Shown here piece after piece: positions 3,514 to 41,526 of a stretch of 64,000 nt of DNA (within the stretch, counting starts at the first letter, position 1; each line of letters begins with the position of its first letter). The translations under genes were made by a program, and so were the position numbers. The DNA lies in NCBI RefSeq assembly GCF_000002425.4, contig NC_037254.1, forward strand, positions 6,430,144-6,494,143. Reading direction: 5' to 3'. This DNA is from Physcomitrium patens (Eukaryota > Streptophyta > Bryopsida > Funariales > Funariaceae). The notes under the pieces were generated by a model. It was not told where the DNA came from and ran no database searches. It saw only the letters and a list, made by a program, of their open reading frames with translations.

Positions 3514-3739
3514 AAAGTGGTGAACCCGGCGTGAAAGCTTGAGGTGGAAGGTATTGGATTTCGGTTGATTTTATCTTTATTTTATGGAAAACGAAAATAA
3601 AAATTTTGAAGGATTTTTGGGAGGAGTTTCTGGTAGGGATTCTTCTAAAGAACAAGGTACGCACATGGATCCATCTATTGTTAGTATATTTCAAGCCTTC
3701 TCATTATCAATGCAGCAACAATAAAGCAATGATCGAAAG

Positions 3740-4610: not shown

Positions 4611-4619
4611 ATGGGAAGA

Positions 4620-5285: not shown

Positions 5286-5289
5286 TAAT

Positions 5290-5960
5290 GGGCAAAACTG
5301 GAATGAGTCATGCTATTGATGCAAGAATATATATAGATGAAGAAGAGGTTGATATTGGTTACAAGCAACCAATAAATGAAAAGAATGGATATAATCAACG
5401 AGTACATTTCGAAGATTATAGTGATAAGGAAATGGAAACTTTGAGCCATTATACTCGAAAGTATTGGGCAAGGGCAACTACTGAGGTATTGGTGAAAGTA
5501 GGAGATATAGATAAACCAATTGTTGCTTTAGTCGACCATGGTTCTGAAATAAATCTCATGTCTAAAGATCTTTATAAGAAGCAAAAATGGCCAATTGATA
5601 TGGAACATGGATGGGCAATACGAGCAGCTAATAACACACGGGGCAAATTATATGGAGCTTGTCCAGATGTCAAAATTCGGATTGGGGATGTTGCGATGGA
5701 GCAACATTTCTTTGTTCAAGATACAACGTCTTATCCGTTGATTTTAGGACAACCTTATATTACGGCAACACGGATGGAAACAAAAGTACTTGACGATGGT
5801 TCTGCTTATGCAAGGGTACGGAGCGAGGATGGGAGGAAAGCTATACAATTTCTAACAGTACTTCCTAACCATGAATGGAATCGAGATAGGTTGAGGGAGA
5901 AACCATTGCCAAAGATTGTTGAAGGATTTAAGGATTTCGGGGAGGTACCACTGTAAAGCG
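5290..5960 (+). mobile_element. Element E aspartic protease region
   Basis: Retropepsin-like: a VKVGDIDKPIVALVDHGSEI stretch holds the usual active-site neighbourhood, and LILGQPYI further on matches the conserved flap-distal (I/L)LGxP segment. The region is followed by a linker rich in charged residues. Confidence 0.75.
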
Positions 5961-6029
5961 AGATTATGGAGGTACAAAAGAGGAGGTACTCTCGCGAGAT
6001 GAAGGTGCCTTTGATGCGAGTTTTATTGG

Positions 6030-7360
6030 TATATTGGAGAATGGAAATATTATGTATAAGAAAGTTGATGATTTTAAAAGAAAAGAAAGAAAAAGATTAT
6101 ATGATATTGAAGGACAATTACGCAAGTTAGGTACATTGCAAGATGATGAGAGGATTTTAGGTGTTTATGAAGAAAATAGACTGGAAGATTCATTGGAATT
6201 GATTACATCTATTGGGTTAGGGGATAATGATAAGATTGTTGAGATTCATTCAAGAGAGGTTTATACCATACTTGAATCTTTTCAAGCACCAGAAGTCATT
6301 GTAGAGACGAGATATAAAATGGCAAATAAGAAGGTAAAGCCTGTTGCCGGACCATTACCAAAAGATTCTAAAGAACAAATGGGAGAAGCATCAAAAGAAG
6401 CAAGTTTAAGAGATCCAATGAGTATTGGACATCAGTTTACTAAAGAGACTTTTGAAGAATTGAAGATTGGTTCTGATGGTTCTTTATTGCCGGAGGAAAT
6501 TACTTGCTTTAAAAAGATGTTGGCTAAACAAGGTAGATCGTTTGCTTTCGAATCTCATGAAATTGGGTGTGTGGATCCAAATATTATAACACCTATGGTT
6601 ATCTTCACTGTACCGCATGTACCTTGGAATCTAAGACCGATTCCAGTACCGAGGGTACATTTACCTAAATTGGTTGAGCTATTAAAAGAAAAGATAAAGA
6701 TGAAAATATTGGAACCCTCGTTTGCGCCGTATTCTAGTCGATGGTTTATGGTACCTAAGAAGAATGGGTCACTATGGTTTATTCAAGATATGCAACCGGT
6801 GAATGCAATAATTGTCAGGAATGCAGGAATTGGACCTATTGTGGATGAATTTGCTAAGGCGTTTGCTGGAAGGGCGATCTATTCAATGGGTGACTTGTAT
6901 TCAAGTTATGATCAATTTCAACTTGTCGAAAGAAGTAGAGATATGACAACAATGAGGACACCACTTGAATTGGTTAGAATGTGCACTCTTCCTCAAGGCG
7001 CGACTAACTCAGTTGCGCATAGGATGAATGGGATGAATAAGGTATTGAGAGATTTTATTCCAGAAAAGACTATGCATTTTCTGGATGATGTTCCTATAAA
7101 AGGGTGCAGAGAAGGAGACAAGGATGAGACTTTAGATACGAGGGGGTGTCGCAAATATGTTGTTGATCATATACAAGATTGTGAAAAGATTTTAACTCGG
7201 CTTAGAGAAGTTCATCTTACATTATCGGATATGAAGTCCGTATTTGGAGTACGAGAGGTTGTAATTGTTGGACATTTATGTGGATCTTACGGAAGAAAAC
7301 CAGATCCGACTAAAGTTGATGCAATTGGAAGGATGAAAGAGGATTGTGATTCTTAAACAG
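6030..7360 (+). mobile_element. Element E reverse transcriptase region
   Basis: Gypsy reverse transcriptase motifs in order: APYSSRWFMVPKKNGSLWFI (fingers), MQPVNA, GDLYSSYDQFQL (palm), LPQGATNS, and the active-site motif FLDD near 7,080-7,090, then the thumb-like CEKILTRLREVHLTLS. About 200 codons of acidic spacer precede it, another difference from typical plant elements. Confidence 0.85.
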
Positions 7361-7369
7361 AGGTTTGCA

Positions 7370-8000
7370 GGTTTTTGGGTGCATGTGTATTTTATCGAAT
7401 CTGGGTCCTTCATTTTGCTCACATAGCGGATCCATTATATAAACTGTTACGCAAGGGTTACCGATTTAAATGGAAAGAAAGGCATATTCAGGCAATACAA
7501 AGATTGAAGAAATTATTGATGTCACCTCCAATATTGAGGAAGGTTGATTATAAGTGCAATAGACCAGTGATTCTTACTGTGGACGCTAGTCCAATTGCCA
7601 TTGGATGGGCTCTGGATCAAGATGATTCAAATGGGAGTAGATTTGCAGTTCGATTTGGGGCTAAAGTTTTAAGTATTCGTCAGTGTGCCTATTCGCAAGT
7701 CAAAAGAGAACTTTGGGGAGTCATTTCGGCTATGAAAGCTGAAAAGGACTATTTAATTGGGGTAGTAGTAGTAATTGAAACAGATTGCTTGCCATTGCTT
7801 AGAATGATTATTAACTGTTCAACGCCAGATATTACAATGTTGAGATGGATTGCTTATATTAAGTCACTAAATCCAGAATTTAAGCATATTACTGGGAAGG
7901 ACAATTTATTAGCAGACATGCTATCTCGAGTAAGATACGAGAGGGAGGACGAAATGGTTGAAGTCATTGATGACGTCGGATTGAAATTCTATTCAATATC
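7370..8000 (+). mobile_element. Element E RNase H region
   Basis: Follows the reverse transcriptase directly. ILTVDASPIAIGWAL carries the first catalytic aspartate context, YSQVKRELWGVISAM the glutamate context, and VVIETDCLPLLRMI the second aspartate context of an RNase H fold. It ends with ITGKDNLLADMLSR, the segment that normally joins RNase H to integrase. Confidence 0.85.
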
Positions 8001-9330
8001 AAATCTCAACAGAGAAGACAAGCTATTTCTTGAAGAATCTTATGAAGGAGAATTATTGGATATTGGTCATTACTTGAATACCTTGACTAAGCAGGGGAAT
8101 TGGTCTACAGAAAAATTCAAACAAATAAGAAAAAAAGCATATGGATTTTTACTTCGAGATGGATTCTTATGGAAGAGACCGAAGAAAGGAATTGGGATGC
8201 CACGACGAGTGATAGGCTAAAGGGAAGAAAAACTAAAATTATTAAAGGAGTTTCATGATAGTTTATGGGCAGGGCATAGAAGAATCTGGGCTACTTTTGC
8301 TAAACTCAAGGAACGATATTGGTGGAAAAATATGTATCGAGATGTGCTCTCATTTGTAGAGTCATGTGAAATCTGTCAATCGTATTCTAATATCCGACAT
8401 CGAGATGGTCTTCATCCTATGTATCCTCTGGCTATTCATTTTAAATGGGTTGTTGATTTGGTTATTATGCCTGTTGGGTTATGGCAGATGAGATATTTGG
8501 TTTTAGCTCGTGAAGATTTATCAAATCAAGTAGAAGGAAGAGCATTGAGGACAAAATCTACAGAGGGGATTTGTAGGTTTTTGCTTGAAGATGTCATTTG
8601 CCGCTACGGATGCGTAGGAAAAATCACTGCAGATCGTGAAGAATTAAATGCACAAGAAGCTCGTAAGTTCTTTGAAAGATGTGGAGTTAAACTATCACTG
8701 ACTACTGCTTATAATCCAGAAGGGAATGTAAAAAGCGAACGCGGTCACCCACCGATTGTAAAAGCATTAGTTAAAGCTTGTAATGGGAAAGTTAAAGAAT
8801 GGCCACAGCTTTTGTCATTTGCATTATGGGCCGATCGAACAACACATAGTTTGGTGACAAGATATATGCCAGTAGAACTTATGACAGGTCGAAAACCAAT
8901 TATGCCGATTGAAGAAAATGTACTTACTTGGAGTATGCTACTATGGGAAGATGGATTGACAAGAGAAGAACTTCTGGCTATTAGGATTCGACAATTGGAG
9001 CAAAGATCGGAAGATGTGCAGATAGCATTGGAAAGATTAAAAAGAGCAAGGTTACGAAACAAGGCGCGATTCGACAAGCAACATCGATTGAGACCTAAAG
9101 CAATCGAAGAACGTGACTGGGTACTTGTTTATGACAATAGTCTGGATAATCAACATAGTACTTTGCGGAAATTTTCAAAACGTTGGTTTGGACCATATGT
9201 AGTAACAACTGTTCATGATAATGCGACTTATTGTTACAGGAGTTAGATGGTACAAAATTGAAAATACCAATTGCAGGGAAGCGAGTAAAAATATTCAAAC
9301 GAAGACATGTGGAGATGAATATGGAAGACC
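8000..9330 (+). mobile_element. Element E integrase region
   Basis: A zinc-binding segment ending in VESCEICQSY, then a core beginning HPMYPLAIHFKWVVDLVIMP, then KSERGHPPIVKALVKACNGK and a C-terminal barrel (GDWVLVY-like and WFGPYVV). The tail (LDGTKLKIPIAGKRVKIFKR) is basic and ends without a chromodomain. Several of these strings match basidiomycete gypsy integrases as I remember them. Confidence 0.85.
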
Positions 9331-9493
9331 TTAATGAAGGTATAGAGATTTCGTAGCAAGAAGATGAAAGTGATTTGGATAATGAAGGTGACAAAGACGA
9401 ACTGGACAAAGACATAGAGGATATATTCTGAATCAAACAGCAATTAGGTAAATTGGTGCATACCGGAGGATGCACAGGTTTAGAAGGGGTGGA

Positions 9494-10752
9494 TGTCGTA
9501 TTGTAACACGAGTATACCATGAAAATATAAAGAAAGAGGACTTTTATTAATGTTCAGTTATCTCGAATATTGGGAGCAACGACCAACTCCAGTGCAAATA
9601 CTGAGTGGCCAGGTTCAGTCACCCCGTTACAGTCAGCCGGGGCATACTGAAATGCTTCGTTCGATTCCAATAACGGGAGTCAGCAAGAAAAAAAGGACCA
9701 ATTCACACGACGGGTGAGCCTGGTTCGAAGAGCCAATTGGATCCAATTTCAAGAATCCAATCCGGGTCCTCTTACCCAATATGAGACCTGAATTGGCCGG
9801 GCAATCCAATGCAGTCTAATTACGGGAAAATCCAAGTCTTACTACGGGCTTCAACCAATCTGACGTGAAGGACCAATTTGATCCAATTACGGGGACATCC
9901 GGGTCTTACTACTGGACTCTTAGCCAATATGAGACCTAAATTGGTCGGGCGACTCAATGTGGTCCCGATTACGGGGTTTTGATTCTGTTTCAAGCTGTCT
10001 TGTTCTCTGTGCCATTTCAAGGAACTTTGTTTTCGGTAAAAAGATCTCTTAAAGGTAAAAACGGGGAAGAAAGCTCTGACGACGAGAGCCAATTTTGGAT
10101 CCAAGCTCTGACGATGGGAGCCAATTCCGGATCCAAGACGGAAGATTGAAGAAATTCAGAGGATAAAGTTAGGAGAGAGAATAAGTTGGTGGGAGAGGTT
10201 TTGAAGATAGGGGAGAGCTAGCTTCATGCTTCGGACGGAGAAAGAAGACAGAGAATTGGGTTTTTTTTTCTTCATAGGGTTTTGGAAAGACTGAGGTAAT
10301 CATTACTGAAGTCAGTGTTGTAATGGTGAATCAGGATTTTTAATGAAGTGGGTTTGATTACTCTTGACTGTTTTGTGAAATCGAGTTACATTTGTGATGA
10401 AGAGTTAAAAGGGTGTCTATAGGATTGAGTATGTGGAGTGAATGAAATTTATTGGGTTAATCTAACAAGACAGTCAATGGATACAAGATCGTGAATATAA
10501 AGTGATATCGAAGATTAGCAGTTTGGGTTGTTCAAGGTTCTCTATAACGTCTAGAGACCTACCAACTAGGGCAAAAAGGACTTCGACAAGCAGTCGAAGG
10601 GTATCCGTATAGATTTACGGTGTATTCTTGCAGTTGTTTGTATTCCAACAGTCAAAAACCGATAAACTGCTTGAATATTGGCGAATCTCCATACTACCTT
10701 CTACAGTCAGACGCACGACGCGTTCTCGAGCATGAAAGCACGTAATACGACA
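9494..10752 (+). repeat. Element E 3' LTR
   Basis: Matches 2,254-3,513 with roughly 95-96% identity by eye. It is preceded by a purine-rich tract (agaaggggtgga, 9,482-9,493), the expected plus-strand primer. It ends ACGACA at 10,752, followed by the target repeat ccgc. Confidence 0.93.
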
Positions 10753-13724: not shown

Positions 13725-16514
13725 TGAAAATGGTGACTAGACTTGAAATGCCTTCTAAATAATGACACCATTCTTGGAATGAATCCATAATTACAAGAAG
13801 TTCCTTCTTATGGATCTCATAATTAATTTTGGTTGTTGAAGATTTCTTAGGATAGAAAGCTATTAAGTAGAGTTTGTCATTTTTTCCTATTTATGATAAA
13901 ATAACATTCATTGCAAAATATGATGCATTTATTTTTATAAAAAATACCTTCAAAAAATCAATGTAATATAATATTGGTGCATAAATAAATACTAACTTCA
14001 AGACTTCAAAAGATGCTTCAGCTTCTTTGCTCTAATTAAGTTTGTCTTTGTATATAAGACATGTAAGAGAAGGCGCAACCTGAGAAAAATTCTTAATAAA
14101 GATCCGATAGTAATTGGCAAAGTCCAAAAAGCATAGCACATTTTTTATTGTTCTTGAAATCTTCTAATCTAAAATAGTTTGAATCTTCTTCGGATCTATC
14201 ATAAGTTCTTCGTTGAAAATGATATATCCTAAGATATTAACTTGAGTAATGTGGAATACGTATTTTTTCAATTTGGTGTACAATCTCACATCTCTAAATT
14301 TTTGTAACACATGACAAACATGAACTTCATACTCTATTATGTACTTAAAATAGATTAATATATAATCTAAGTAATAGATAAAAAAATCATTTAAAAAATT
14401 ACAAAAAATATCATTTATAAGATGTTGAAAAGTAGCTGGTACATTCGTAAGTCCAAAAGGCATGACATTATATTCCAAGTGTCCATATCTTATTCAAAAT
14501 GTAGTCTTCTATTCATTTTCTTCTTTAATGTGGACCAAATTGTATGCTTTTGTAGATCTATTTTGTATAAATCTTAGCTTGATGTAGTTGATGAAGAAGT
14601 CTAAATATAAAAGATAAACGATACCTATTTTTGATAGTAATCTTATTAAATCCTTGATAAATTATACATAGTTGCGATGATCCATCTTTTTTCTTCATAA
14701 ATAAGATAGGAGCTTTAAAAAGAGATTTTGAATGATGTATGAAATTCTTGGCGAAGTTCTTGTCAATGTACTTCTTGAATTCAACCAACTCATTTTGTAA
14801 TAAACTATAGATTGGACCAAATGGTAGCTAACTTCTTTCTTTAAGGTCAATTGAGTATTTATATGGATGATGCTTTGAGAGTATATTTCTATTCTTTATT
14901 TCAAAAATATTTTGAAAATCTTGATATTAACTTAGAATGCTACTTAAAGTCTTTCTATCATTAAAAATGGATGTGGCATAAATAACAAAGGATGATTCTT
15001 TTTTTTACAACATGCAAAAAAACTTTTGCACCTGCAAGTATGCATTTGATTACACTAGACTCATGGCTTTTTATAATAATTTTAATAGTACAATGAAAAA
15101 AGTTAAATTTATAAGAAATCCAATATATCAAAGGATTATATTTTTTTAACCATGATAAATCTAAAATGACTCAATTAAAAAGAAACCTAATTATATTAAA
15201 AATAATTCAACTATTATGACCATTTATTGCTACATCTGTAGGAAGTGTTTCAGGAGTAATGTCTCTAGAGGATAATGGATGGCCATCTATGACATGTATA
15301 GGTTTAGTTTTTTGTACTAACGGTATTCTATGGCTTTTAACAAACTCTTCATCTAAAAAATAAGTTCATGCTCTTGAATCTATCAAAGTAGAGGTTTTGT
15401 AATTATTAGGTATTAAATGTACATCTATTGTAAAACAAGGAGAAGATTTTAAGGAGAGGATAGGACCTTCATTTGTATAAGATTTTAGCGGCATGGTTCC
15501 TATTATAGTTGAATAAATTTATTATTTGACATTTTTTCATCTTTGACAGTCGTACTTCTTATTTTGCAGTAGCGTCATTTTTTTGAATAATGTTGAGTAA
15601 TATAATTAGCTTTTCTACAATATAAACATAATCTTTCTTAACGACAACAAGTCTTTTCTTGTTCAATAAGAGGTTTAAAACGTATTGCATCAATTTGTAT
15701 ATCTTCTACTTTTAGATGTTTAGATTGAAAGGTCATTGGTGTTGTCATTGAATTATAATAGTGTAGAGGTTCTTTTATGTAATTTTCAAATTGAAGCTCA
15801 AAAAGTTGATTGTTATACTTCACAAAAAAATCAATTGCTTGATTCAATGTTTGAGGATCAAATAAGTTGAGCAATAATTTCTTTATCTCATATTGTAATC
15901 CGTAGAAAAATTGGCTGATAAAGATAGCATCATTGCACTTGATATCAGTTGCTAATTGTCAAAATTGTAAAGCATATGATATTACTAATTGATTGCCTTA
16001 TTGTAAAATATAAATTTTATTGGTTGTAATACAAATTGCATTATGTTTTTCTTACATGGATCAAAACTCCACCAAAAAAGCCTCAAGTTTATCCAATATT
16101 GGATCTCGTTGCTCAAGAAAAGATGAAAATCATAATAATACTGAATATAAAAGAAGTATATTAAAGAATCTAACTTATGATCTTGACGTTGGATAGCTTT
16201 GGAATTCAAGTTCAATCAAAAATTATACTTGATTGATAAATCTTCAAAACTTGGAACTTATGCCATCAAACTTCTTGGGTAAGGCAATTCTAGGTTCACT
16301 AATACTAGAAGCATGTTCTACTATAGGAAAAGGAATGTGATTTGGTGTACATGTTGAAGCAGCTCCAATCATGTATGTATCTTCACTTCCTGCCATTTTT
16401 GTTATTCCAAGAGGTGATAAATTGAGTTGATGCATTTTAAGCATCAAATCTTTCAATTGCTCTTGCATTTGTGCTATTGCACTCTTTATTTCATAAAGCT
16501 CTGCCATAATGATA

Positions 16515-19090: not shown

Positions 19091-19140
19091 GTGTCCTTGT
19101 GGCGGACCTGCCCAGTACTTGGCCAACCTCGTCGACTCGT

Positions 19141-19200
19141 CTAGGCTCGACTCGGCTCAGCTCGGCTCAGCTCGGCTCAGCTCGGCTCAGCTCGGCTAGA
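19141..19200 (+). repeat. 10-bp tandem repeat upstream of the hnRNP gene
   Basis: The unit CTCGGCTCAG is repeated four times without error (19,151-19,190), with partial units on both sides. It lies about 300 bp before the start codon, at the step from AT-rich to GC-rich DNA, so it is probably in the promoter or 5' untranslated region. Confidence 0.9.
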
Positions 19201-19490
19201 CCCCTCCTTCCTTGAAGCCACACCCACCCCCTTCTAATCCTTGCGCCCGGCCCCGATCTGTTCCGCTTAACCCTAAGCTCTCCCTATCGCTCCTCCCCTG
19301 CTCTGGTGCGGCCTCCTGGTTCGCGCGTTGCATGGGGATCGTAGGCACTGTTCCTTTTGCTGCGCTCGCCCGCATTGTTTCTTAGATCTTTGCATACGCG
19401 AGGCGCGTTTTGGGTTTGGTTGGGTGTCGGGTGGTTGTTTCTACGGTAGGTAGGGCGGGTGATCTGGCGGATCAGGGCGGGCTGCCGGTC

Positions 19491-21268
19491 ATGGACTCCG
19501 ATCAGGGCAAGCTCTTCATCGGTGGCATATCGTGGGAGACCACGGAGGAGAAGCTGCGCGATTATTTTAAGAGCTATGGCGAGGTGGTCGAGACCGTGAT
19601 CATGAAGGACCGCGCGACGGGGCGCGCGCGGGGCTTCGGGTTTGTGATCTTCGCGGACCCGAGCGTGGCCGATCGGGTGGCGGGCGAGAAGCACACCATC
19701 GACGGAAGAACGGTAAGCGCCCTGCTTTGGAACCCCGGGCCTTTAGTGGAGTGTGGCGAGGTTAGAGCGGTGGAGCGTGATGGTGTTGGTGGCATGGCGA
19801 TGTGTGGCAGTTGTATAACTTGTGTAGCATGTCTTTCTTAAATCTTTTGCTATTCTAGGTGGAAGCGAAAAAAGCTGTGCCGAGAGACGAACAGCAGAAT
19901 ATGCCTAGGAGCAACAGCGTGGGTGGCCAAGGGCCAGCAACATCCCACACTAGGACAAAGAAGATATTTGTGGGGGGCCTAGCCTCAACAGTTACAGAAG
20001 ATGACTTCAAAAAGTATTTCGAGCAGTTTGGTACTATTACAGATGTGGTTGTTATGTATGACCACAATACTCAAAGGCCTCGGGGCTTTGGCTTCATCAC
20101 TTTTGATTCTGAGGATGCAGTTGAGAACGTGATCCAAAAGTCGTTCCACGAGCTCAACGAGAAGATGGTGGAGGTGAAGAAGGCCATTCCGAAGGAGCTG
20201 TCGGGAGGGTCGGGTCGAGCTGCCGCGGGATTCGGCGGAGGAGGTCGCGGCGGGGGCATCTACGGATCGGGGTACAGCCAGGGAGGATACGGCGGTGGGA
20301 GTCCAGGAGGAGAGAGTGGGTACGGCGGTGGGAGCCCGGGAGGAGGGAGTGGGTACGGCGGGCGAGGCGGGTATCCGGGGTACGGGGCTGCAGGTTACGG
20401 AGGTGCGGGATTCGGGAGCAGCGGTGGACATGGCGCGGGGATGAACGGGGGCTACGGGGGCAGCGCGTATGGCAGCAGCGGTGGGTACGGGAGTGGCGCG
20501 GGGGGTTACGGGAGTGCAGGATACGGGAACGCTCCGGGCGCAGGAGGTTACGGCAGCGCTGCGGGATATGGCAGCGGAGGCGTGGGCAGCGCAGGGTATG
20601 GGAGCGNNNNNNNNNNNNNNNNNNNNNNNNNNNNNNNNNNNNNNNNNNNNNNNNNNNNNNNNNNNNNNNNNNNNNNNNNNNNNNNNNNNNNNNNNNNNNN
20701 NNNNNNGGGGAGAAGCGCGTGGGGCAGCGGAGGTGGTGGGTACGGGACGGGATCGGGCTCGACTGGGTACGGGGGCAGCGGGACGGGGAGCATGAGCGGG
20801 TACGGCAATGCAGGATGGGGGACGACGGGGACGGGGGCAGGGGCCGCAGTGAGTTCGGGTTACGGAAGTGCGGGGTATGGTTACGGAAGCAGCGACGCAG
20901 GCTACGGATCGACGGGTGGGTATGGCGGTCGAGGTAGCGGGTACGGGTCGAGCGCAGGAGGTTACGGGACGGCGGGTGCAGGGGCGGGAAGCGGGAGCTA
21001 CGGTGGGGGTTACGGAGATGCATATTCGGGATACGCCGACAACACGTGGAGGTCGTCGGGGACAGATTCATACAGTTCGGGAGGCACGGGGTCCGTGGGA
21101 GGAGGGACGGGAGGTGGATTCGGCGTGGGCGGAGGCGCTAGCGCGGACGGAGCAGTAAACGTGGCGTCAGGCTACGGGGGAGGATACGGTGTGGCAGGCA
21201 GACAGACACAGCGAGGTCCTGATGCCAGATTCAGGCCCTACCCTGCCGCTGGTGACCGCACTGGCTAG
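19491..21268 (+). CDS. hnRNP/RNP1-like RNA-binding protein: two RRMs and a glycine-rich tail
   Basis: Nuclear RNA-binding protein of the plant hnRNP A/B-like family (Arabidopsis RNP1 and relatives), expected to act in splicing, export or stability of mRNA. Two exons: 19,491-19,712 and 19,859-21,268, with a 146-bp GT-AG intron between codons at the end of RRM1. The start is the ATG giving MDSDQGKLFIGGISWET, the conserved family start; an upstream in-frame ATG at 19,410 is not conserved. RRM1 spans about residues 6-80 (RNP2 LFIGGI at 8-13, RNP1 RGFGFVIF at 47-54). RRM2 spans about 109-185 (RNP1 RGFGFITF at 149-156). From about residue 190 the chain is Gly/Tyr/Ser repeats (GYGS, GGYG), typical of low-complexity condensate-forming tails. 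A 100-N gap falls in this tail, so the true length is unknown (543 residues as assembled). The coding GC content is very high compared with the flanks. Confidence 0.93.
20607..20706. other. Assembly gap (100 N)
   Basis: Exactly 100 Ns inside the GC-rich, internally repetitive glycine tail of the hnRNP gene. The round number suggests a placeholder of unknown size. The reading frame is the same on both sides as assembled, but that is coincidental unless the true gap is 3n+1, as 100 is. Confidence 0.95.
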
Positions 21269-29108: not shown

Positions 29109-29345
29109 TGGATAAGATACTTGTATTCTTAATACATAAAAATAGGTAGTTGGAGCCATATTTGAGAAGTCTTTAAAATTAAAGCTAAGATAGTAGTTCA
29201 TATGGGATCCACCAAGGAACATTTTAAAAATGACTTAGAGTAGTTATCTAGGTGGAGTCCACTATTAGAAATATTCTAAAAAGTTCTACAATGATTGAAT
29301 TAAGTATAAATAAAATAATTCAAGGTTATTTAGGTACTTATCAAA
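29109..29345 (+). repeat. Element D 3' LTR, left piece
   Basis: Matches the first half of 24,614-25,056. It stops at ggtac (29,341-29,345), where element C begins. Confidence 0.75.
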
Positions 29346-29862
29346 GAAAGAAAATCTTCAATATACTCTTGTATCACGGAATGGAACTAGAAAGCTACTC
29401 AAAAATGATATAATATTAAACTAGAATGGCTATTGCCAAAATTAAGAAGACTAAAAAGTCTTCAAATAAGACTAAAGACTAAAAAAGTCTTGACAAGAGT
29501 GAAAAAGGCTTCACTCTTGCATCCATATATATTCTTAACTAAGAGCTACATGGCAATGTCTTATAGGACCTCTAAAAAGTGTTGATTTTATAAGACATGT
29601 ATCTTAACTTTGAAGGTAAGTTTTCTATATGTAGGCCACATAATTAGCTTATTCCGCAACTTATCAACATGTGGTTAACTTGTTGACCAAATTTCTAAAC
29701 TACCAATCAACTACAAACACATGTAAAGTCAAGCAACGTCTATGAAGCTTTTAGAATACTCATCTAAAAGGTCTTATGAAATTAACCTACTTTTATCTAC
29801 TTTTATATATTCCTACCTAATCATAAAGATATTTATTAGAATACCTATGTATATCTGTAGCA
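29346..29862 (-). repeat. Element C 3' LTR
   Basis: Homologous to 40,967-41,526 (shared cactcttgtatcac-like, ggaactagaaag and tataggacctc strings), with the TATA region near 29,525 (tccatatatattc). Its outer end lacks about 20-40 bp present in the partner. Confidence 0.75.
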
Positions 29863-32800
29863 TTGCTCCTACTTCTAGAAGCAAGTTCTATGAGGAGCGG
29901 TCTTCATATGTTGAAGAAATCAAAGATGCGGCAAATTGTATTTGCGACATACTCCAATCTTTGTTCTCTTTGAAGATAGTTGATAGGCCCTCTCAACGAT
30001 CCATAGTGTCTCATATTAGGGCAAAAAAACCACCTTGTTATTAGGTCATTGTTGAGGCCTTCATAACTTCCTTCAAATAAAATATTTGAATACTGTCAAG
30101 AATTATTCTTACCTCTAATAAAATCACCAAACATTGGGAGTTTCTTCTAAAGTCATGATATCAAACATGTTATATCTTGCCATTTATTTAAGGAAATTCA
30201 TGTCATTTTTGAAGATCTTCATCTTGATTTTTTCATCTTAAAGGTTGTAACAATGGCAATGTCTTATTTGATAAACTCGCAAATAAAAGCTCTTGATTTG
30301 AATCTACTAGTTGTTGATTTCAAACTTCTTAGCATCAAAAATACACAAAAGCTACAAAGAAAGATAAAAAAATATAATGTTATCTTCTTTTATTCTTGTT
30401 TCTTTTATAGCAAAGATTTGTTATTCTTCATCTTGGTTTTAATGGATGTTGTTGATGAAATGCTTCAATTCTTCTTATTGCATTTGCAAGATTCTTTGAT
30501 ATCTCCTATATGAATTTACTAATATCATATCATTCCAAAGAAAAAGATATTCCAACCCATTTTGTTGCCACCTTGAGTCTACAACTTCTTCTACATCATT
30601 ATTATCCACTTTTATAATCCACTTTTATAAGAAAAAGTAGTGTTTGCCTTCTTCTCGAGATATTTATTACCTTATATGGCTCAAAAAGGGACACATAAAA
30701 TATAGGGTGGATTTTCATAGGCTCTAGTAGATGTAATCAATGAATAATATAATTGATTTATTCACAAATAAAAAAAGGTCCCAACCTATGATAGTCTAAC
30801 TTATTACAAAGACGAGTAGTCTTAATATTGCGACAAAGTAACCATACCTTGTCACCCACATTAAATTATGGTTATTCCTTGCAATAGACATTTGAGTTGG
30901 TCTTTTGTCATTCTTGAGATTCCTTTAATTGTTTCTTCATTGTTTCATATAGCTTTGATAAAGGATTTTCTAAATCTTCTATCATATGATTATTAAATTT
31001 TGAAAAGTCAAAAGTATTAAGTCATGGATGATAACCATAATTGGCAAAGAAAGTTGTTTGTTGAATGGAAGAATGTATCAAATTATTGTATGCAAACTCT
31101 ATCAATGGCAAAAGAGATGTTCAATCATCTTGATGATAGTTGATGGTATACCTCAAATATTGCTCCAAAACTTGATTCACCTATTCTATTTGCCTATCAA
31201 TTTGAGGATAAAAAGCCAAAGATAGCTTTACATCTATCTATAAATTTTAAAATGAGATTTTTGAGAATCTTGATACAAATTAGATTTTCTTATTTGATAT
31301 AATATCCTTTAATAATCCATGATAGTAATAGATCTTATCAATGAAAAGCTTAGCTATTTTTTTACTTGAAATAAATTTGATACATAGTATAAAATGTATC
31401 ATTTTGGTGAATCAATCTACAATTACAAGTATAGAGTCATATAAACTTGAATTTGGAAGATCTATAATAAAATCCATAGAAATGGAAGAAGATAGTTGTT
31501 TGCATGTAGGCAATGGTTAAAGAAGTCCATTGAATCGATGACAAGGAGTTTTTGATCTTGAACAAATGTTACATGATTAGACAAAGTCTTTTATTGCCTT
31601 CCACATTTGCGGCCATGAAAAATCTTTAGATATAAGCTCTAAAGTCTTGTTGTGTCTAAAATATCCTACTTCTGGAAAGACATGACATGCTTAAAAAACA
31701 CGTAAAAATGCTTCTCTTTTTAGAACATATAGGCGTCTTTTGAAATAGAGTAGGTTGTTCTTGAACTTAAACTTTGAAATATCATGAGACTAAAAGAAAG
31801 ATTCTTGATATCATAAATAAAAAGATCAGAGGACATACTTGATTGAATTTATTTGACAAAGGTCAAATCAATAATCAATGTTGATTTCATTGCTCGAAGA
31901 TGAAATTGCTCTGACTTCAAGAGGATTGCTCTTTATTGATTAAAAGATATGTTTCTTTCTTTTGATATAAAATAAGACTATCTAAAAAGAGCTTTTAATA
32001 AACCTTGTTATTTTTTAAGTGAAGATGTAATCTAGAAATCAAATCTTCATAATGACATGCTCCAACAAGCTTGATGGTGATTCAAAACACATGTCAACAT
32101 AAAATACTTGAGGTTCTTGTGATTTATATATACTATGATTGGACTTAAAGTGCCTTCTAAATAATGATGCCATTCTTAAAATGAATCTACAATTGCAAGA
32201 AGTTCTTTGTCATAGATCTCATAGTTAATCTCAAGTGCAAATTATTTTATGAAATGGAAAGCTATTGGATGGAGTTTGTCATTTGTTTCCATTTATCACA
32301 ATACTACATCAAAGGGAAATTTTGATGCATCTATTTTCATAAATAATCCCTTAGAAAAGTCAATGTGATACAAAATTGGTGCAAAAATAAATTTCTTCTT
32401 TAAAGCAACAAATGATGCATTACCTTCTTTATTCCACTCAAGTTTTTCTTTATAAGTCAAATGTGTAAGTAGAGCTGCAGCTTGAAAAAAGTTCTTAGTA
32501 AAGATTTGGTAATAATTGATAAAGTCCAAAAAGTATTGCACATCTCTTATTGTTCTTGGGATCTTCCAATCTATGATAGTTTGGACCTTCTTTGGATCCA
32601 CCATAAGTCTTCATTGGAAATAATATAGTTCAAAAAGTTTACTTGAATGGTGTGGAATATATAATTTTCCATCTCCGTATATAATCTTGTATATCTTAGC
32701 TTGTATAACACATGACAAACATATACTTCATATTTTTTGTATTCTTAGAATAGATTAAAATATTATCTAAATAACAAATGATAAAATTATGAAAAAACTC

Positions 32801-33212
32801 ACAAAAGACATCATTCATTAGATATTGAAAAGTACCTAGTACATTTGTAAGTCCAAAAGGCATAACATTATATTCAAAATATCCATACTTAGTTTAGAAA
32901 GTAGTCTTTCATTCATCTTCTTCTTTGATATGGAATAGGTTATATCTTCTTTGTAGATCTATTTTTATATAGATCTTTGTTTGATTTAGTTAATCAAGAA
33001 GTCCTAAAATTAAAGATAGAAGATATTTATTCTTAATGGTGATCTTTTTAAGTCCTCGGTAATCTAAACACATTTGTAGAGATCTATCTTTTTTCTTTAC
33101 AAATAAGATAGGAACATTGGCTGAAAATTTAAAATGGCATATAAAATTTTTAGCCAAGTTTTTATCAATTGACTCTTTGAGTATAGCCAATTCATTTGTG
33201 ATAAGCTATAGA

Positions 33213-33714
33213 TGTTATGGACAATATAAAAGATAAGGATCCAAGACTAAAAAATATAATTAATTTGATATTAGAATAATAACAGATTACAAAGAAAGAA
33301 GGTCCTAGCTAGGCCATAAGAAGTGAGTTGTTGAGATTGAGGATTCCTTTAACCTCGACTCCTATTATATATTAGGTCCTAGGAAGCTTCTTAAGAAGTT
33401 TTTATGAGGCTTGAGAATAAAGTAAGCCTAAGATCCTTCTTCAATAATTTTTTAAATCATCTAAAGCATCCTAGAACCTTCTAGGACCTCCTATGAATTT
33501 CTAAAACTTTCTTAGAATCTACTAAAATCTTTCAAAATCTTTTGGAACCTCCTACAACCTTCAAGAGCCTTCTTAGAACCTATTCGTATCTTTTGAAACG
33601 TTTTGGAACCTTGTAGAACCTTTTAGAACCTTTTAGAACCTTTTAAAATCTTTTAGAATCTTCTAGAACTTTTTGGAATCTTTTGGAACCTTCTTCAGTT
33701 GTATGTCCATAACA
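33213..33714 (-). repeat. Element B 3' LTR (502 bp)
   Basis: Ends form an inverted repeat (TGTTATGGACA...TGTCCATAACA). It holds a TATA-like string (tattatatatta) at about 33,361-33,372 and, upstream of it in the sense of the element, a long array of ~10-bp units. It is about 70 bp longer than its partner, close to seven array units. Confidence 0.85.
33462..33695 (-). repeat. ~10-bp repeat array in B's 3' LTR resembling heat-shock elements
   Basis: About 22 degenerate units of AGAACCTTYT. The stretch 33,601-33,690 is exactly 10-bp periodic over nine units. GAAnnTTC half-site pairs occur intact at 33,474-33,481 and 33,686-33,693; elsewhere TTC is often TTT, as cytosine decay would produce. The array lies roughly 90 bp upstream of the TATA-like string in the sense of the LTR. 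Confidence 0.75.
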
Positions 33715-34369
33715 TCACTTCCTCTTTTAGCTTTGAGGTCTCCAAGAAGTAATATTACATCAAGTTAATATATGTATAAGAAGTTGAAGATCTCTCACAT
33801 GATGTCCGTTATATATTTTAGTTATTTTTTGTGATGTAAATGGTTCATATGTCTTAATAGCCATCAATAGTGTCTTAAGCCTTGTACTTGTGACCAAGCA
33901 TGAACTTCAATATCTTCATTATAGAATTATCTTGCAAACACTCCTAGACATCTTTTATAGGTAGGTTCTATCTCAAACACAATTACTAGTGACCTATTAC
34001 TAGGTATTCTTTGATATCTTCATAGTTCAAGTGGCTCTTCATCTCAAGGTTGTCTCCGCAAGCTATTTGGTTGAGATGGTATGATCAGCAAGGCATCTAT
34101 TTCTTCATTATCCATATCATATAAAGTGGATATTACTAAAATAATATAAATATGCTATGATCGTGAACTCAAACTATTGACTTATACTATTTTAAACATT
34201 TGACAACAATTGCCTCTTTAGAAGTTGCCTCCTCCACTTCTTTATGAAGCTAAGAATTAAGAATCTTCATAATAAAGCTATCATATCAAGCTACTGTTCT
34301 TCATTTTGCCGCTTTTGATCTATATAGATGTCATTGATGGAACCTTTGAATCTTCATTTGTACATTTAA

Positions 34370-34510
34370 AAGGTTGCAAGCTGGTTTCCATGTGTGATCG
34401 TTGATATCATATCCGCACCATTAGATTAGATATTCAAGCCTTCTCTATCTTATTCTTGAATCTAATACCTCTTCTATCTCAAATTCAACATAATCATTGG
34501 TTTCAATTAT
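34370..34510 (-). mobile_element. Chromodomain region of element B
   Basis: The minus strand holds FEIEEVLDSRIR and, further on, CGYDINDHTWKPACNL, the two halves of a chromodomain (normally VExILDxR ... WKGYxxxxxTWEP). Chromodomains at the integrase end direct insertion into H3K9-methylated chromatin, which would fit insertion into existing elements. This segment defines A, B and C as chromoviruses. Confidence 0.75.
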
Positions 34511-37500
34511 AGGAGGTAGTGGTTGTCTTTGACAACATATGTTCAATTCTTTATACTTTTTCAAAAGTAAAATATGAAAGACTAGATGAATCTTCATGGA
34601 TGAAGGTAACTCCATGCAATAAATTATATATTTAATTTATTTTTGAATCACAAATGGTCCCAATCTTCAGTAGTCTAACTTATCACATGGCTTGTTGGTT
34701 TTTATATTATACCAAAAAAATCATACTTTGTCACCAACTTGGAATACAAGATGTTCCTTCCTCAATTCATCTGCTACTAGCTTATAATGTTCTTGAGCCC
34801 TTTCTAGATGAGTCTTTATAGTTACTTAAAGTTCGGCCATCTTTGTAGCAAACTCCTTTACTGTTGGATTTGCCAACTTTAAAGGCTTTATCATATCTAA
34901 CTTTGGATAATGACCATAGTTTAAATAGAATGACATTTTCTTTGTAGATGTCTAGATTGTATTCTTATATACAAACTTTATCAATGATAAGTAGAAAGTC
35001 AAATCATCTTGTTGATTGTTGATGGTACATCTCAAATATTACTCAAGAATTTGATTGACCCGCTCCATTTGGCCATCAATTTGAGGGTGGAAGATAGAGA
35101 AAAGGTTGATGTCAACCTTAAGAATCTTAAAAAGTACCTTCTAAAATCTTGATATAAATTGTGGTCCAAGATTTGACTTAATATCATTTAGAAACCTGTA
35201 GTAATGATAGATATTATCAATAAAGAGTCTTGCCATCTCTTCACCAATAATTTTCTTCTTACAAGGTATAAAATATGCCATCTTAGTCAATCGATCCACA
35301 ACTACAAAGAGAGTGTCAAATGAGCTTGACGGTAGAAGATCTGTAATGAAATCCCTAGAAATAGATGACCATAGTTGTCTTGGAATAAGAAGGGGTTGAA
35401 AAAGTCCATATAGCTAATGTCGAGGATTCTTTGACCTTCAATAAGTATCACATGAAAATATGAATTCTTTTAACGTCCTTTCATATTTTAGGCCACTAAA
35501 AGTCTCTAGACAAAAGTTCCAAAGTCTTATTGAATCCAAAATATTTGGCTACAAGGAAGTCATGGCATGTTTAAAGAATGTATATGTGAGTTGGTCCATC
35601 AAAAATGAATAAACATTCTTCAAAGAATAAGATGTTGTCTTCATACTTAAATTTAGAAGATTCTTCAGGAAGATTGTTGGCAAGACGCTTGATATTAAAA
35701 ATAAGAAGGTTTATATTTGACACTTTACAAACTTCATCAAGAAATGATAAATCTATAGGTATTGATACATTGGTTGCTCGAAGATGAAATTACTCAAGTT
35801 TTAATAAGATTACCCGCTTTTGATTATATGTTATCTCGCATTCTTTTGATTCAAGGTAAGAATATCTTGATAATGTATCTAATAATTCTTGTTGGCTCTC
35901 ACATCAATATGTGATGCAAAAGTCAAATTATAATAAAGATATACTCCAACATGCTTGGCGATGGTTCAATACTCGAGTTGATATAAAGTATTTAAGATTC
36001 TTGTGATTTGTATATATAGTCACCTAATGAAAGGTGCCTTCAAGAAAGTGATACTATTCTTGGAAAGAAATTATGATAGCAAGTAACTCTTTATTGTGGA
36101 CTTTATAGTTAATTTTTACCACTGAGAATTTTCTAAAATAGAATGTAATTGGATGAAGTTTGCCATCTTCTCCATATTGTGACAAAACTACTCTCAATGC
36201 AAAGATTGAGGCATCGGTTTTCATAAAATAGGACTTTTTGAAATCTGGATGTATCAAAATTAGAATTGTTGTGAAAGCATCTTTTAAGCTTTGAAAAGCT
36301 TTCTTTGCTTCAGGGCCCCAATCTAATTTGTCCTTGCATGTCAACCGCATAAGTGGAGTAGTAATTTTAGAATAATTTTTAACAAAAATTCTATAGAATT
36401 TTGCAAATCCAAGAAAGCATTGAACATCACATACAGTTTTTGACTTTGTCCAATCAATGATTGCTTGTATCTTCTTTGGATCCATAAAAAGGCCTTAATT
36501 AAAAATAATATATCCAATAAATTTGACTTGAGGTATATGAAATACATACTTCTTTAATTTTGCCTATAACTCAGCACTTTGTAGCTTTTCTATTACCAAG
36601 CACACATATTTTTTGTAGTCTTCTGGATTCTTGAAAAAAAAATAAAATATCATCTAAATAGATTACAACAAAGTCATTGAGATACTTACAAAATATGTCA
36701 TTCATTAAGTATTGGAATATGGTTGGAGCATTGAAAAGTCCAAAAGGCATGATATTGTATTCAAAATATCCATACTTGATGCGATTGATCAAAAAGTTTA
36801 TATATCAACGACAATGGATATCAATTCTTTATCATGATTTTATTCAGACCGTGATAATTGACACATATTTGTAAGGATCCATCTTTCTTCTTCACAAATA
36901 ATATTGGAGCATCAGTTGGTAACTTGGAATGTTAACTAAAATTCTTCACTGCTATGGTTGTCAAGGTTATTTCTAATAGAATTACTTCATGAGTGACATC
37001 TCTAGAAGATAAAGGTCGACCATCTATTACTTCTATATGTACAACTTTGGATTTTTTGACCATACAAATTTTGTGTGATCTAAAAAATTCTTTGTCAATA
37101 AAACATGCAGAGGCTCTTGAGTCAAGTAATGCATGACAATCAAGTTTTGTGACTCCTAATCATACAAATATAATAAAACAACAAGAAGGGCTAGCAGAGA
37201 GTACATGATCTTTTTTGGTTTATGACAGTGAAGAATCCAGTTGTACAATCTCTACTGTGGCTAGATGCCCTCGTTTTCCTACAATACTTTTAATGATATA
37301 GCCACACTTTTCATTTGATATGTACACTAGCATTTTTTTGAACAATTATTAATCTTATAGCTAGATTTTTTGTAATATAAATATATGTCAAGTTCCCTTC
37401 GATGCTTTTTTTTCTTCTTCACAAAGAAGTTTGAAGCAAATTGTATTAATCTTCATATCTTCTCCTTCTAATTATTCATTAGAATTGAGTGGTGAAAAAG

Positions 37501-38349
37501 TTGCAGAATAATTGATATATACATATAGTATAATTAAAGAACGTTTATCTTATCGTTGTTGAAATAAATAGTTATTGTAGTTCACAGCTTGACTTATTGC
37601 TTCATTGAGTAGTAAAGGATTTGGCATAGATAACAATAAGTCCTTGACATTATCTCTTAATCTCCAATGAAATTGACTCATCAATGTATCTTCTTTCCAA
37701 TTTATATCATAATTTGATTATCAAAAATTTGAGGCATACATTGATGAAGAGCACATTCTTTGTCAAAGGCTTAGAATTGTACTTGTTAAAGAATGAACCT
37801 TATCATGTTCACCAAATGCTGCCATAAATGCTTCAAAAGTATGCAATATAGCAGAATTCTTTTCAAATAATAAGACTAACCAAGATAAAGCTTGATCTAA
37901 GAGCAAGGTTTTGACCAAACCAAAACAAGATGCTTCAGTAGAATATTGTTGGAATTGAAGCAAGGTGATTAGTCGTACTTAGTTTACAAAGCCACAAAAT
38001 TTGGAATAGGTGCCATCAAACTTTTTTGGAAGGTTGATCGTTGGTTCTTTTGTTGTTATTTTTCTCAGATCATTGCCTTGAATAGATGCACCTTTCATAT
38101 TTGAAGTAGACATAGTCGTTTGAGAATTTGAAACCTTTGTTGCAATTTGATATAGTAGTTGAGGCACTCCGGCTCTTTGACCATTATATATGGTCATATA
38201 TAGTTCTTCATTCTCCTTTGATAAAGTCTTTGACTTTATTCTCAATGCTTCAAGAATATTAATAATAGAATCTAGCTTGATCTCTATTGAGTGTATCATA
38301 TTCACTTTTCTACCTTCTACGATAGAAAATCAGACAAACACATGCCTTC

Positions 38350-38384
38350 AAAAGAAAAAGAAAAAAAAAAAAAAAAAAAAAAAA
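38350..38384. repeat. Poly-A tract beside gag of element B
   Basis: A run of A with two early G interruptions, in the leader just before gag, the same place as the tract at 16,518 in element A. Confidence 0.9.
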
Positions 38385-38423
38385 TCCAAAAGAATATTAA
38401 AAAATGAACAATATTAATATACA

Positions 38424-38487
38424 GGAGGATAATCTACAATCTCTAAAATGCTATAGTCCTTCAAAGAAGAGAGGTAATTTACTCTCT
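38424..38487 (-). other. Paired leader hairpins of element B
   Basis: Two short hairpins between primer site and gag: about 38,424-38,443 (weak stem) and 38,468-38,487 (six-base stem AGAGAG/CTCTCT around a GTAATTTA-like loop). Equivalent pairs occur in the leaders of A, C and the left-edge element. Confidence 0.55.
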
Positions 38488-38539
38488 ATCAAGAAAGATG
38501 AAGCTCTTAATTTTTTTTTATGGCACTCTTGATAAATTA

Positions 38540-38968
38540 TTAGAGACCATATACAAGACAAGGATCTAAGACTAAAAAATGGAGGTAATTCTATATTAGA
38601 ATAATAATTGGATAGAAGGCAAGAAGGTCCTAACTAGACCATAAGAAGTGAGTTGTCAAGAGTGAGGATCCCTTCAATCTTCACTCTTATATATACTAGG
38701 TCCTAGGAAGCTTCTTGAAAAGTTTCTGTGAGGCTTGAAAACAAAGCAAGCCTAAGATCTTTCTTCAGCAACTTCCTAAATCATCTAAAGCATCCTAGAA
38801 CCTTCTAGGACCTCTTATGACCTTCTAGAACTTTCTTAGAATCTATTAGAATCTTCCAAAATCTTTTGGAACCTCTTAGAACCTTCAAGAGCCTTCTTAA
38901 AATCTATTGGTACCTTCTGGAACCTTCTAGAACCTTCTGAAATCTTCTTTAATTGTATATCCATGATA
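38540..38968 (-). repeat. Element B 5' LTR
   Basis: Homologous to 33,213-33,714. The TATA-like string is cttatatatact at about 38,690-38,701. The inner edge is uncertain by about 20 bp because the expected TG...CA end there is worn. Confidence 0.8.
38781..38950 (-). repeat. ~10-bp repeat array in B's 5' LTR resembling heat-shock elements
   Basis: About 17 units with consensus AGAACCTTCT. The best part, 38,921-38,938, reads GAACCTTCTAGAACCTTC: four half-sites alternating in orientation at the exact spacing heat-shock factors bind (GAAnnTTCnnGAAnnTTC). The array ends about 80 bp upstream of the TATA-like string in the sense of the element. Confidence 0.8.
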
Positions 38969-40821
38969 ATTGATTGGTCCTCATGGTAGTTGAGTTCTTT
39001 CTTGAAGATCATTTGTACAATCATAAAGACAATGCTTTGAAAGAATATATGCATTCTTTTTTTCAAAAACATCCTAAAAATCTTTATACTAGCTAAAAAT
39101 ATCACTTGATATCTTCTCACTATTAGCAATGGACATAGCATATATATCAAAAGATGGCCCTTTATTTGAGGCATGCATGAAAGCTCTTGCACCTACCAAT
39201 AAAGTTTTGGATATACTAAACATATGGATTTCTACTTGCCTAACAATACCTTGGGCTAAACTATGGGAGAAATTAAGATTGTGAGAAATCAAATCTATCT
39301 GAGGGTTATATCTTTCTAATCACAATAATTCTAAAATGATTGAATTACAAGGAAAGTTAATCATATTAAATATTACTAAACTATAGTAACCACTAATTAC
39401 TACTTTTACAAGAATAGTTTTATATGCAATATCTCCAGAAGATAATGAACATCCATCTATTACTTCTGTATGGACAGGTTTGATTTTCTGAACTAAAGAT
39501 ATATCTTGTTTTTTGATAAAGTCTTCATCTATAAAAGAAGTTGAGGCTCCTAAATCCAACAAGGCTAAGACTTTGTGATTTTTTGGTCTTAAACAAACTT
39601 CTATTGTAAAATAAGATGAAAGATCTGAAGAAAGAATAAGACCTTTATTAGATGTTACAAATGATTCTAACCACACGGTCCCTATCATAGCTAGAGTAAC
39701 TCATTTTCTAATACATTGTCTTTTATGGCAATCATGCTTCTTATTACTGAAGCCATTGCATGTACTTTTTTGCATTATTTTTTTTGGACAATATTGAATA
39801 ATATATTTAGCTTCTCCATAATATAAGTATAAGCCCTCTTGATGTTGTTGACTCTTTTCATGCTCTATGAGGGATTTAAAATGTACCATATCAATTTATA
39901 TTAGTTCTAGCTTTGATAAATAAGTTTTTGAAGATTTAAGAGCTACCAACATTATTTGATTTGTTCTTCTCTGGCCATATCTTTGTTCTTGATATCTTTT
40001 AAATAATTGATTTCCACATACAATGGCTTGAGTAATAAATCGTTCTAAAGATTTTGTCTTTGGCATTGTCAGTAACAAGTCTTTCACATTATCCTTTAAT
40101 CCATATCAAAATTGATTGATAAATGCTTTGTCATTCCACTCCATGTTACAAATAAGGTTTTGGAATTCAACAGCATATATGGTGGCTAAATGTGATCATT
40201 GCTATAAAGATAAGAGCTTAGTCTCTACTATTCTTATTTGATTACTTTGTCCAAATGTGGCCGTAACTACTTCTAAAATTGAATTCAAATCATAAAAGAG
40301 TCACAAATCTTTTTCTATTAAAGATATAAAATAAAAAAGAACACTTCTTAATAGTTATGCTCCTATGAATCCGACTTGAATAAATTTATTAGGATATTAG
40401 AAAGGATGCAATCTTAGATAAAGCTTGACTTGTTGCAAAAATCCTCAAAATTTTGATCTTATTCCATCAAACTTCTCAGGCATACTAATACTTGTCCCTC
40501 TCATGCTTTTAGAAGCAAAACTCTTTGGATTTGGTTGTGAGATCAATCTACTTGCTTTTTTTAACTATACAACTTTTTATTGCAAACTCTAAATTTTTTC
40601 CATAAGCGTAGGTATAGTACCTCCATGATTCATATTGGAAATACGTGAGATTTCTATTCTTAGAGTATTGACAAGCTCATGAAGATCTGCAATAGTTACA
40701 AATCTATTCTTACTTTTGCTAAGAATAACATCTATAATTTTTTCTTCCATAGACAACTCAAAAAAATTCAAAAAGTTAAATTAAAGGAAGGTAATCTACA
40801 ACCTCTAGTAAAAATTTCTAC

Positions 40822-40947
40822 AAAGAGAGATAATCCACTCTCTTTTAAGAAAAGATCAGTATTAGAAAATAAGATTTTTTGTTTAAAAGTGGATAGTCAG
40901 CAACCTTCAAAATATAATAATAGAAGTGGGATAATCTACTCACTTCT
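40822..40947 (-). other. Leader hairpins of element C
   Basis: Two strong hairpins: 40,822-40,845 with an eight-base stem (AAAGAGAG/CTCTCTTT, loop ATAATCCA) and 40,922-40,947 with a nine-base stem containing one G-U pair (AGAAGTGGG with its partner). Two weaker repeats of the loop motif (about 40,787 and 40,890) suggest that the leader unit was duplicated in this element. Confidence 0.6.
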
Positions 40948-40966
40948 TAAACATTTAGATATAGTA

Positions 40967-41526
40967 TGTTAGCAGTCTTGTCAAATTATCAAAGACATGA
41001 ATCTCAAAGAAAGAAACTCCTCTGTACACTCTTGTATCACTAAAAGGAACTAGAAAGTTACTCAAAGATAATATAATATTGAATTAGGATGGCTATTACC
41101 AAAAACAATAAGACTAGAAAGTCTTCAAACATGACCAAGGATTAAAAAGGCCTTGATAAGAGTGAAAAAAGGCCTCATCCTTGCCTCCATATATATTTTT
41201 AATTAGGAGCTATGTGGCGATGTCCTATAGGACCTCCAAAATGTGTTGACTTTGTAAGACATGTATCTTAACTTACAAGACAAGTTTTCTATGTGTGTAC
41301 CACATAGTTAGCTTGTTCTACAATTTACCAATATATATTTAACTTGTTGACCAAGTTTCCAACCTACCAATCAATTACAAACACATGTAAAGTCAAGTAA
41401 TGTCTATGAAGCTTCTAAGAAGTTCATCTAAAAGGTCTTATGAAATTACCCTACTTTTATCTACTTTTACCTATTCCTACCTAACTATATAGATATTTAC
41501 TAAAATACCAATGTATGTTTGTCATA
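40967..41526 (-). repeat. Element C 5' LTR
   Basis: Homologous to 29,346-29,862 and to A's LTRs. It contains the half-site pairs tatGAAgcTTCtaaGAAg around 41,408-41,425 and a TATA region near 41,185-41,200. Confidence 0.75.

Follow-up and report, generated by a model that had tools for sequence, protein, structure and literature searches.

A decayed Ty3-type element and the array in its LTRs

The window analysed here is a stretch of 64,000 bases from the moss Physcomitrium patens (contig C2, 6,430,144-6,494,143), and genome scans were made over the 470,438,890-base assembly of 101 contigs. On its minus strand, at about 33,213-38,968, the window contains a Ty3-type element with two LTRs, referred to here as B. 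It is nested in C, another Ty3-like element, whose LTRs (29,341-29,858 and 41,004-41,522) are 84% identical. The 5' LTR of B spans 38530..38968 (minus strand, about 439 bp, the inner end being placed to within a few bases), and the 3' LTR, delimited by LTR-LTR alignment, spans 33213..33714 (minus strand, 502 bp, TG...CA). A C-type copy that lacks the insertion, at another place in the window, aligns with the sequence on both sides of B and has the junction at 14,807-14,812. Read by eye, the flanks ATAGA (33,208-33,212) and ATTGA (38,969-38,973) agree in four of five letters and look like a worn 5-bp target duplication. Fragments resembling C are also present at about 10.8-17.2 kb and 0-1.5 kb of the window, and a GC-rich tandem repeat, CTCGGCTCAG, lies with a 469-aa open frame containing 33-bp repeats at 19132-21268.

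The gag-pol remains of B occupy 34300..38526 (minus strand) and contain many stops, as judged from reading frames and from Pfam matches to RVT_1, RNase H and SH3_Tf2-1 pieces. Along the minus strand these pieces follow the order RT, RNaseH, SH3_Tf2-1, and the protease match reaches an E-value of only 0.072. The integrase piece has no Pfam match, yet it is 62% identical to the integrase of a second family, H, described below. The earlier note had labelled the element a chromovirus. This holds for H, by a Pfam chromodomain, whereas for B it is plausible only, the chromodomain having been spotted by eye in a reading frame that contains a stop. The two LTRs of B are 84% identical over 393 aligned columns, and their K2P distance of 0.20 corresponds to about 11 million years since insertion (LTR ages use the rate of 9e-9, as in PMC7466625). 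B is a decayed, dead relic. That it is heat-responsive today was rejected, because of the many stops in its coding region and the LTR distance of 0.20. By eye, the DNA beyond the 5' LTR of B (L001) resembles the flank of a copy at C3:17914766 (L002), and the two copies may be one insertion within a duplicated segment.

A 10-bp unit, ideally AGAAGGTTCT when read along the element, is repeated about 19 times in degenerate form in the 5' LTR and makes up the array at 38763..38952 (minus strand). Wrap-around alignment to this unit gave 19.0 units (L001 17-206). TRF rows cover 38,795-38,948, with period 10, 14.2 copies and 66% matches at 38,795-38,938. The array of the 3' LTR, found by TRF and a scan for runs of half-sites at 33472..33694 (minus strand), is more decayed; it shows period 10, 15.3 copies and 73% matches at 33,539-33,692, and a single run of three half-sites at 33,656-33,668. 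In the 5' LTR the earlier note had recognized a stretch of perfectly spaced half-sites. The spacing is indeed perfect, but the run comprises five alternating GAA/TTC half-sites at 38915..38937 (minus strand) and not four at 38,921-38,938. Two runs of three half-sites are localized at 38823..38835, inside the array, and at 38707..38719, outside it and adjoining the TATA string (both minus strand). Read along the element, the array stands at the LTR start and is followed, after about 70-100 bp, by a TATA box. This TATA-box-like string, TATATATA, had been correctly seen below the array; its position, given as about 38,690-38,701, is corrected to approximately 38688..38695 (minus strand, read by eye). 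It falls inside the 76 bp around the TATA box over which the core promoters of B and H are homologous and 72% alike.

Half-site statistics were compared with 2000 dinucleotide shuffles of each LTR. For the 5' LTR, none of the 2000 shuffles matched the number of runs of at least three half-sites, the longest run or the number of +5 pairs. The same test was weaker for the 3' LTR (p 0.019 for its single run of three, p 0.003 for +5 pairs). Total GAA and TTC counts were only mildly raised (p 0.006 for the 5' LTR and 0.078 for the 3' LTR), and the extreme property of the B LTRs is the 5-bp alternation, not the raw half-site count. TRF, the unit count in the 5' LTR and the shuffles together confirm the degenerate array of alternating GAA and TTC, with a period of about 10 bp, that the earlier note had described in both LTRs; in the comparison with shuffled LTRs that it had proposed, spaced half-sites lie far above the shuffles. 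In one B 5' LTR and one H LTR, opposite half-sites peak at an offset of 5 with a second peak at 15, and like half-sites peak at 10. Four of the five runs of at least three half-sites in the 64-kb window fall in the two LTRs of B. No such run was found in the four LTRs of C (29,341-41,522) and of element A (2,254-10,752), whose LTR pair is younger than the other two measured in the window; the numbers of +5 pairs per LTR are 0 and 1 in C, and 1 and 1 in A.

Relatives of B in the genome

Apart from B itself, the best matches to B are 39 places at 82-88% identity and one more partial row at 70%, only 40 of 1468 first-look candidates having been scored. The LTR sample was drawn from 28 of 41 matched rows and 20 of 27 predicted partner windows, giving 48 loci. 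Fourteen of the 20 partner windows had no LTR match, 34 of the 48 loci yielded an LTR, and addition of the 3' LTR of B brought the sample to 35 LTRs. Runs of at least three half-sites are present in 30 of these 35 LTRs, including both from B, and absent from five; 12 have a run of at least four, four a run of at least five, and one a run of six. The 35 LTRs (15.8 kb) hold 58 runs of at least three, against a mean of 0.65 and a maximum of 3 in shuffles. Flanks of the loci, amounting to 141 kb, hold 12 runs (seven of three and five of four half-sites). The possibility that the array is a quirk of one old copy was rejected on the basis of the 30 LTRs with runs.

Six LTR pairs of the family, together with that of B, have K2P distances of 0.13-0.21, or 7-12 million years, and there are no young copies among those examined. 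Across 26 LTRs (L017 and L018 were left out), the six half-site positions of the unit are kept at 0.745 on average versus 0.727 for the other four. There is no trace of selection on the half-sites in the copies sampled, as would also be expected of neutral decay in dead elements. LTR lengths range from 412 to 522, most commonly 442 or 452, in steps of mainly 10 bp, and such steps also separate the two LTRs of a single element. Both the 10-bp steps and the lack of preferential conservation favor the strongest rival explanation, that of a plain U3 minisatellite in which slippage, or else template switching in the course of reverse transcription, would have multiplied a 10-bp GAAnnTTCnn unit. The resemblance to a factor site would then be incidental, with no factor involved. 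We consider this origin unlikely as a full account, in view of the comparison with H that follows.

A young chromovirus family with a denser array

Searched in exact form, the 23-bp pattern of five half-sites has 1557+1710 = 3267 matches in the genome, runs of six being counted twice, whereas the pattern read backwards, used as a control, has 5+6 = 11. When the first 30 of the 3267 matches were opened, at 18 places, every one proved to sit in an LTR of a single type, H. All 30 loci, among them the locus of the H probe itself (L049), match this probe at 75-100%, mostly over 430 bp or more; at L058, L068, L070 and L071 the match covers about half of the LTR or comes in two pieces. The first 100 five-site matches form 44 clusters, and 11 cluster pairs are 5.5-6.2 kb apart, as expected of paired LTRs.

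Because these first loci had been fetched by the run pattern, a sample independent of it was required. The 5' end of the H LTR, TGTTAGGGACATATTC (a 16-letter pattern), has 737 exact copies genome-wide and none for its control; such exact-pattern counts of LTR starts are lower bounds. Within the stretch of C1 common to both match lists, 27 H LTRs were picked solely by the 5' end; every one of them has one or more exact five-site runs within 330 bp, where 0.07 would be expected at random. Sixty-six of 100 listed five-site runs adjoin an exact H LTR start. The first 100 starts in the list, which cover about 80 Mb from C1 to C3, include 24 pairs 5.5-6.2 kb apart, a number that suggests some hundreds of H elements in all.

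Two complete copies, L079 and L080, define the element: the LTR is 495 bp long, the whole about 6.3 kb, and the two LTRs are 96.0% and 98.8% identical, respectively. Both copies are flanked by exact 5-bp target duplications (CAAGG/CAAGG and TTATT/TTATT, respectively). Pfam domains in L079 are, in order, RVP_2, RVT_1, RNaseH, H2C2 and rve; L080 has rve, SH3_Tf2-1 and a chromodomain (PF00385, E 2.6e-16, L080:5457-5675), and gag is also found in H. With its PR-RT-RNaseH-INT order, its chromodomain and its paired LTRs with a 5-bp duplication, H is a Ty3 chromovirus. Four usable LTR pairs have K2P distances of 0.012-0.052, or about 0.7-2.9 million years, the pair L070/L071 being excluded from dating because its LTRs carry a deletion. 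In a set of 13 distinct H-type LTRs, fetched by the run pattern, nine are 95-100% like that of L080. The usual tRNA primer site is missing directly after the H LTR, and TATCAGAGC is located about 27 bp further in (L080:896-935). Chromoviruses with odd priming are known. An inverted repeat was seen by eye just past the TATA box in H (TCGAGGCTGA...TCAGTCTCGA, L080:740-775) and in B (about 38640-38690, minus strand); in both elements it may give the transcript a stem at its 5' end.

H and B are related. Their RT, RNase H and integrase pieces are 62-67% identical, their DNA is about 66% identical, and both LTRs start with TGTTA-GGACATA. Between element A and H, identity in the same three domains falls to 21-25%; the LTR start of A (28-letter pattern) has 238 exact copies, again a lower bound. 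Some H LTR starts are 14.3-14.7 kb apart and not 5.8 (C1:13060196/13074868, C1:27650230/27664555, C2:15549554/15563887 and C2:23401838/23416336). One such case was opened (L081) and contains an A element inserted in H at about 5,280 in the sense of H, which rules out a larger element there. A 14.2-kb spacing on C3 was likewise rejected as a larger element and corresponds to two neighbouring elements. The recurrence of the 14.3-14.7-kb spacing may hint at a preferred insertion site.

The array is denser in H than in B. Four H LTRs have 24, 26, 27 and 28 +5 pairs, versus 11 and 5 in the LTRs of B, and each has six to eight runs of at least three half-sites. In the 5' LTR of L080 these runs lie between positions 21 and 316, followed by TATATA at 328. 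The spacers between GAA and TTC are mostly GG or GA in B, and GT, GC, CC or CT in H. Half-sites and spacers are equally conserved in most of the 13 H-type LTRs; in the most divergent, L065, identity is 0.74 for half-sites, 0.57 for spacers, 0.57 for the rest of the array and 0.95 for the remainder of the LTR. This set is biased because most copies were fetched for carrying a five-site run, and it is not used as proof.

The H array also contains repeats of 25, 50 and 74-75 bp, in keeping with a minisatellite, and the arrays of H and B may stem from one ancestral array. Slippage alone nevertheless leaves unexplained why two families that are about 66% alike, with different spacers, share the 5-bp GAA/TTC alternation next to a homologous TATA box. 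The overlapping palindromes of the units (TTCTAGAA) raise another explanation, in which they would form structures, either near the 3' end of the transcript or as cruciforms in the DNA, with a role in RNA stability, packaging, polyadenylation or integration, and not in transcription. The H array does fold better, as RNA, than all of 200 shuffles (z -4.24), but good folding is expected of any tandem palindrome, and the B array is weaker (z -1.87, with 9 of 200 shuffles equally good). A structural role of this kind appears very improbable. Being young and holding every long heat-shock element opened (30 of 30), H would be a better candidate than B for a response to heat.

A putative heat-shock promoter in a moss chromovirus lineage

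A link to heat is suggested by the motif GAAGSYTCTAGA (given as such in Table 1 of PMC7073223 and as GAAGYTCTAGA in its text), which is reported for 49 promoters among the top 100 genes of a moss module rapidly activated by heat, and whose best published match is Arabidopsis HSFA1E. The ideal unit of B and the units of H are instances of this motif. Exact copies number 6-8 per LTR in four H LTRs and are present in all 13 H-type LTRs; there is one in the 5' LTR of B and none in the 3' LTR, and only five of 34 B-family LTRs have any. With up to one mismatch, the motif occurs in 33 of these 34 LTRs (118 sites; shuffles, mean 1.95, maximum 4). The earlier note had suggested looking for the array in other family members, and it is there by both measures, half-site runs and heat motif. 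The four LTRs of C and A contain no exact copy, and one C LTR has one at one mismatch. Eight stretches of the genome match the HSF DNA-binding domain. The classical HSF site is nGAAnnTTCnnGAAn. It is used as such in PMC6927752.

We propose, with a probability of roughly 60%, that in a moss lineage of Ty3 chromoviruses the array acts as a multi-site heat-shock element of the U3 promoter, which HSFs would drive. The alternating nGAAn units, placed about 10 to 310 bp ahead of the TATA box, would be occupied by trimers of host heat-shock factors. Their binding would turn on LTR transcription in heat and let the element be copied while its host is stressed. B would be the dead relic of one branch and H a young branch with a denser array. 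We infer factor binding, heat induction and a benefit to the element from sequence; the stronger array in young H implies that such elements may wake up in heat. This reading is favored over the minisatellite because of the 5-bp phase, the common position of the arrays ahead of the TATA box and the fit to the moss heat motif, which slippage does not explain. Alternatively, the unit might serve ABA, dehydration or developmental regulators, or a repressor-class HSF, the array tuning the LTR with no heat switch. The moss Ty3 family RLG2 responds strongly to ABA as well as to heat, and RLG1 is repressed by heat shock (PMC7466625), as such a role would allow. The published best match of the motif to HSFA1E (PMC7073223) and the classical HSF site argue against it, and we regard it as quite improbable.

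The same study bears on which published family H may be. RLG2, like H and B, is a Ty3 LTR retrotransposon of P. patens, and the copy number of H, some hundreds, suggests the order of the 529 complete RLG2 elements. Only 25 of these 529 resemble RLG2 RNA by the 80/80 rule (PMC7466625), a poor fit both to young H and to dead B. Since nine of 13 H-type LTRs are 95-100% like L080, the identification of H with RLG2 is doubtful. Neither H, with 737 LTR starts, nor A, with 238, looks like RLG1, the most abundant moss family (5092 complete elements, PMC7466625), both counts being lower bounds. For RLG3, Vendrell-Mir et al. obtained no RNA assembly from a data set that includes heat stress, and described its polymorphisms as "intriguing" with no expression found (PMC7466625). 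If H were RLG3, this lack of RNA would speak against a simple heat induction of H. The main text of PMC7466625 mentions neither a motif, nor tandem repeats, nor LTR sequence.

A broader proposal is that H is a heat-triggered Ty3 family and the main genomic holder of long perfect heat-shock elements, whose dispersed LTRs might give heat-responsive promoters to neighbours, perhaps Pp3c13_1670; we put it forward tentatively, as rather unlikely in this full form. Pp3c13_1670 is a heat-activated moss gene with 10 HsfA1E motifs reported in its promoter (PMC7073223), about as many as in one H LTR, and an upstream LTR would explain this number. A search for this gene through its Mlf1IP family gave no match, and the control likewise had no match anywhere.

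Transposable elements bearing heat-shock elements are already known, and the array of H and B is a variant of the theme set by ONSEN (ATCOPIA78) of Arabidopsis. ONSEN has a heat-response element in its LTR promoter (nTTCnnGAAn with nGAAn boxes) and uses host HSFs (PMC3907296), as proposed here for H and B. In both H and B the LTR has, upstream of the TATA box, a heat-shock element of at least three nGAAn units, as expected of an LTR retrotransposon working in the manner of ONSEN. ONSEN is a Ty1/copia family with 8 reference copies, for which dependence on HSFA1/HSFA2 and binding of HSFA2 have been demonstrated (PMC3907296), whereas the use of HSFs by H and B is putative. By their Ty3 domain order and chromodomain, H and B do not belong to the ONSEN family proper; H has its 737 exact LTR starts, and its half-sites far outnumber those of ONSEN. 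The ONSEN LTR promoter is also free of CG and CHG, unlike either array: that of H is poor in CG (2 CG and 3 CHG in 296 bp on one strand; CG observed/expected 0.18), and that of B has no CG and 1.58 CHG per 100 bp. In Caenorhabditis, too, one class of transposable elements, the Helitrons, holds most genomic heat-shock elements in dense, tandem-like clusters (61.4% in C. elegans, 11,527 of 18,766; PMC6927752). These are animal DNA transposons with measured HSF-1 binding, whereas in H the sites form an LTR promoter and their share comes from the 30 matches opened.

Among Ty3 elements, PHRE1 and PHRE2 of moso bamboo had their LTR activity examined under heat stress; the LTR-binding factors named are TCP, DOF and GATA, and HSE and HSF are absent from the main text (PMC8656106). 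Tcn1-like chromoviruses of mosses, lycophytes and fungi are Ty3 elements with a chromodomain, like H, and SM-Tcn1 has LTRs of 440 bp, but PMC2864245 is not seen to describe a heat-shock-element array in the parts consulted. Heat-induced Ty3 elements are reviewed in PMC9780303, whose main text does not contain moss, HSE or HSF. Among the papers listed in open-licence searches on heat shock elements with chromovirus, moss or Ty3 retrotransposons, none reports such an array, and the one combining heat shock element and chromovirus ties the element to ONSEN.

If H is driven by heat, the ONSEN strategy would also exist in another superfamily and in mosses, far from the flowering plants. It would further provide a testable reason for recent moss Ty3 insertions with no detected transcription, as described for RLG3 (PMC7466625). 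The hundreds of copies of the H LTR may thereby have spread heat-responsive promoters across a model genome.
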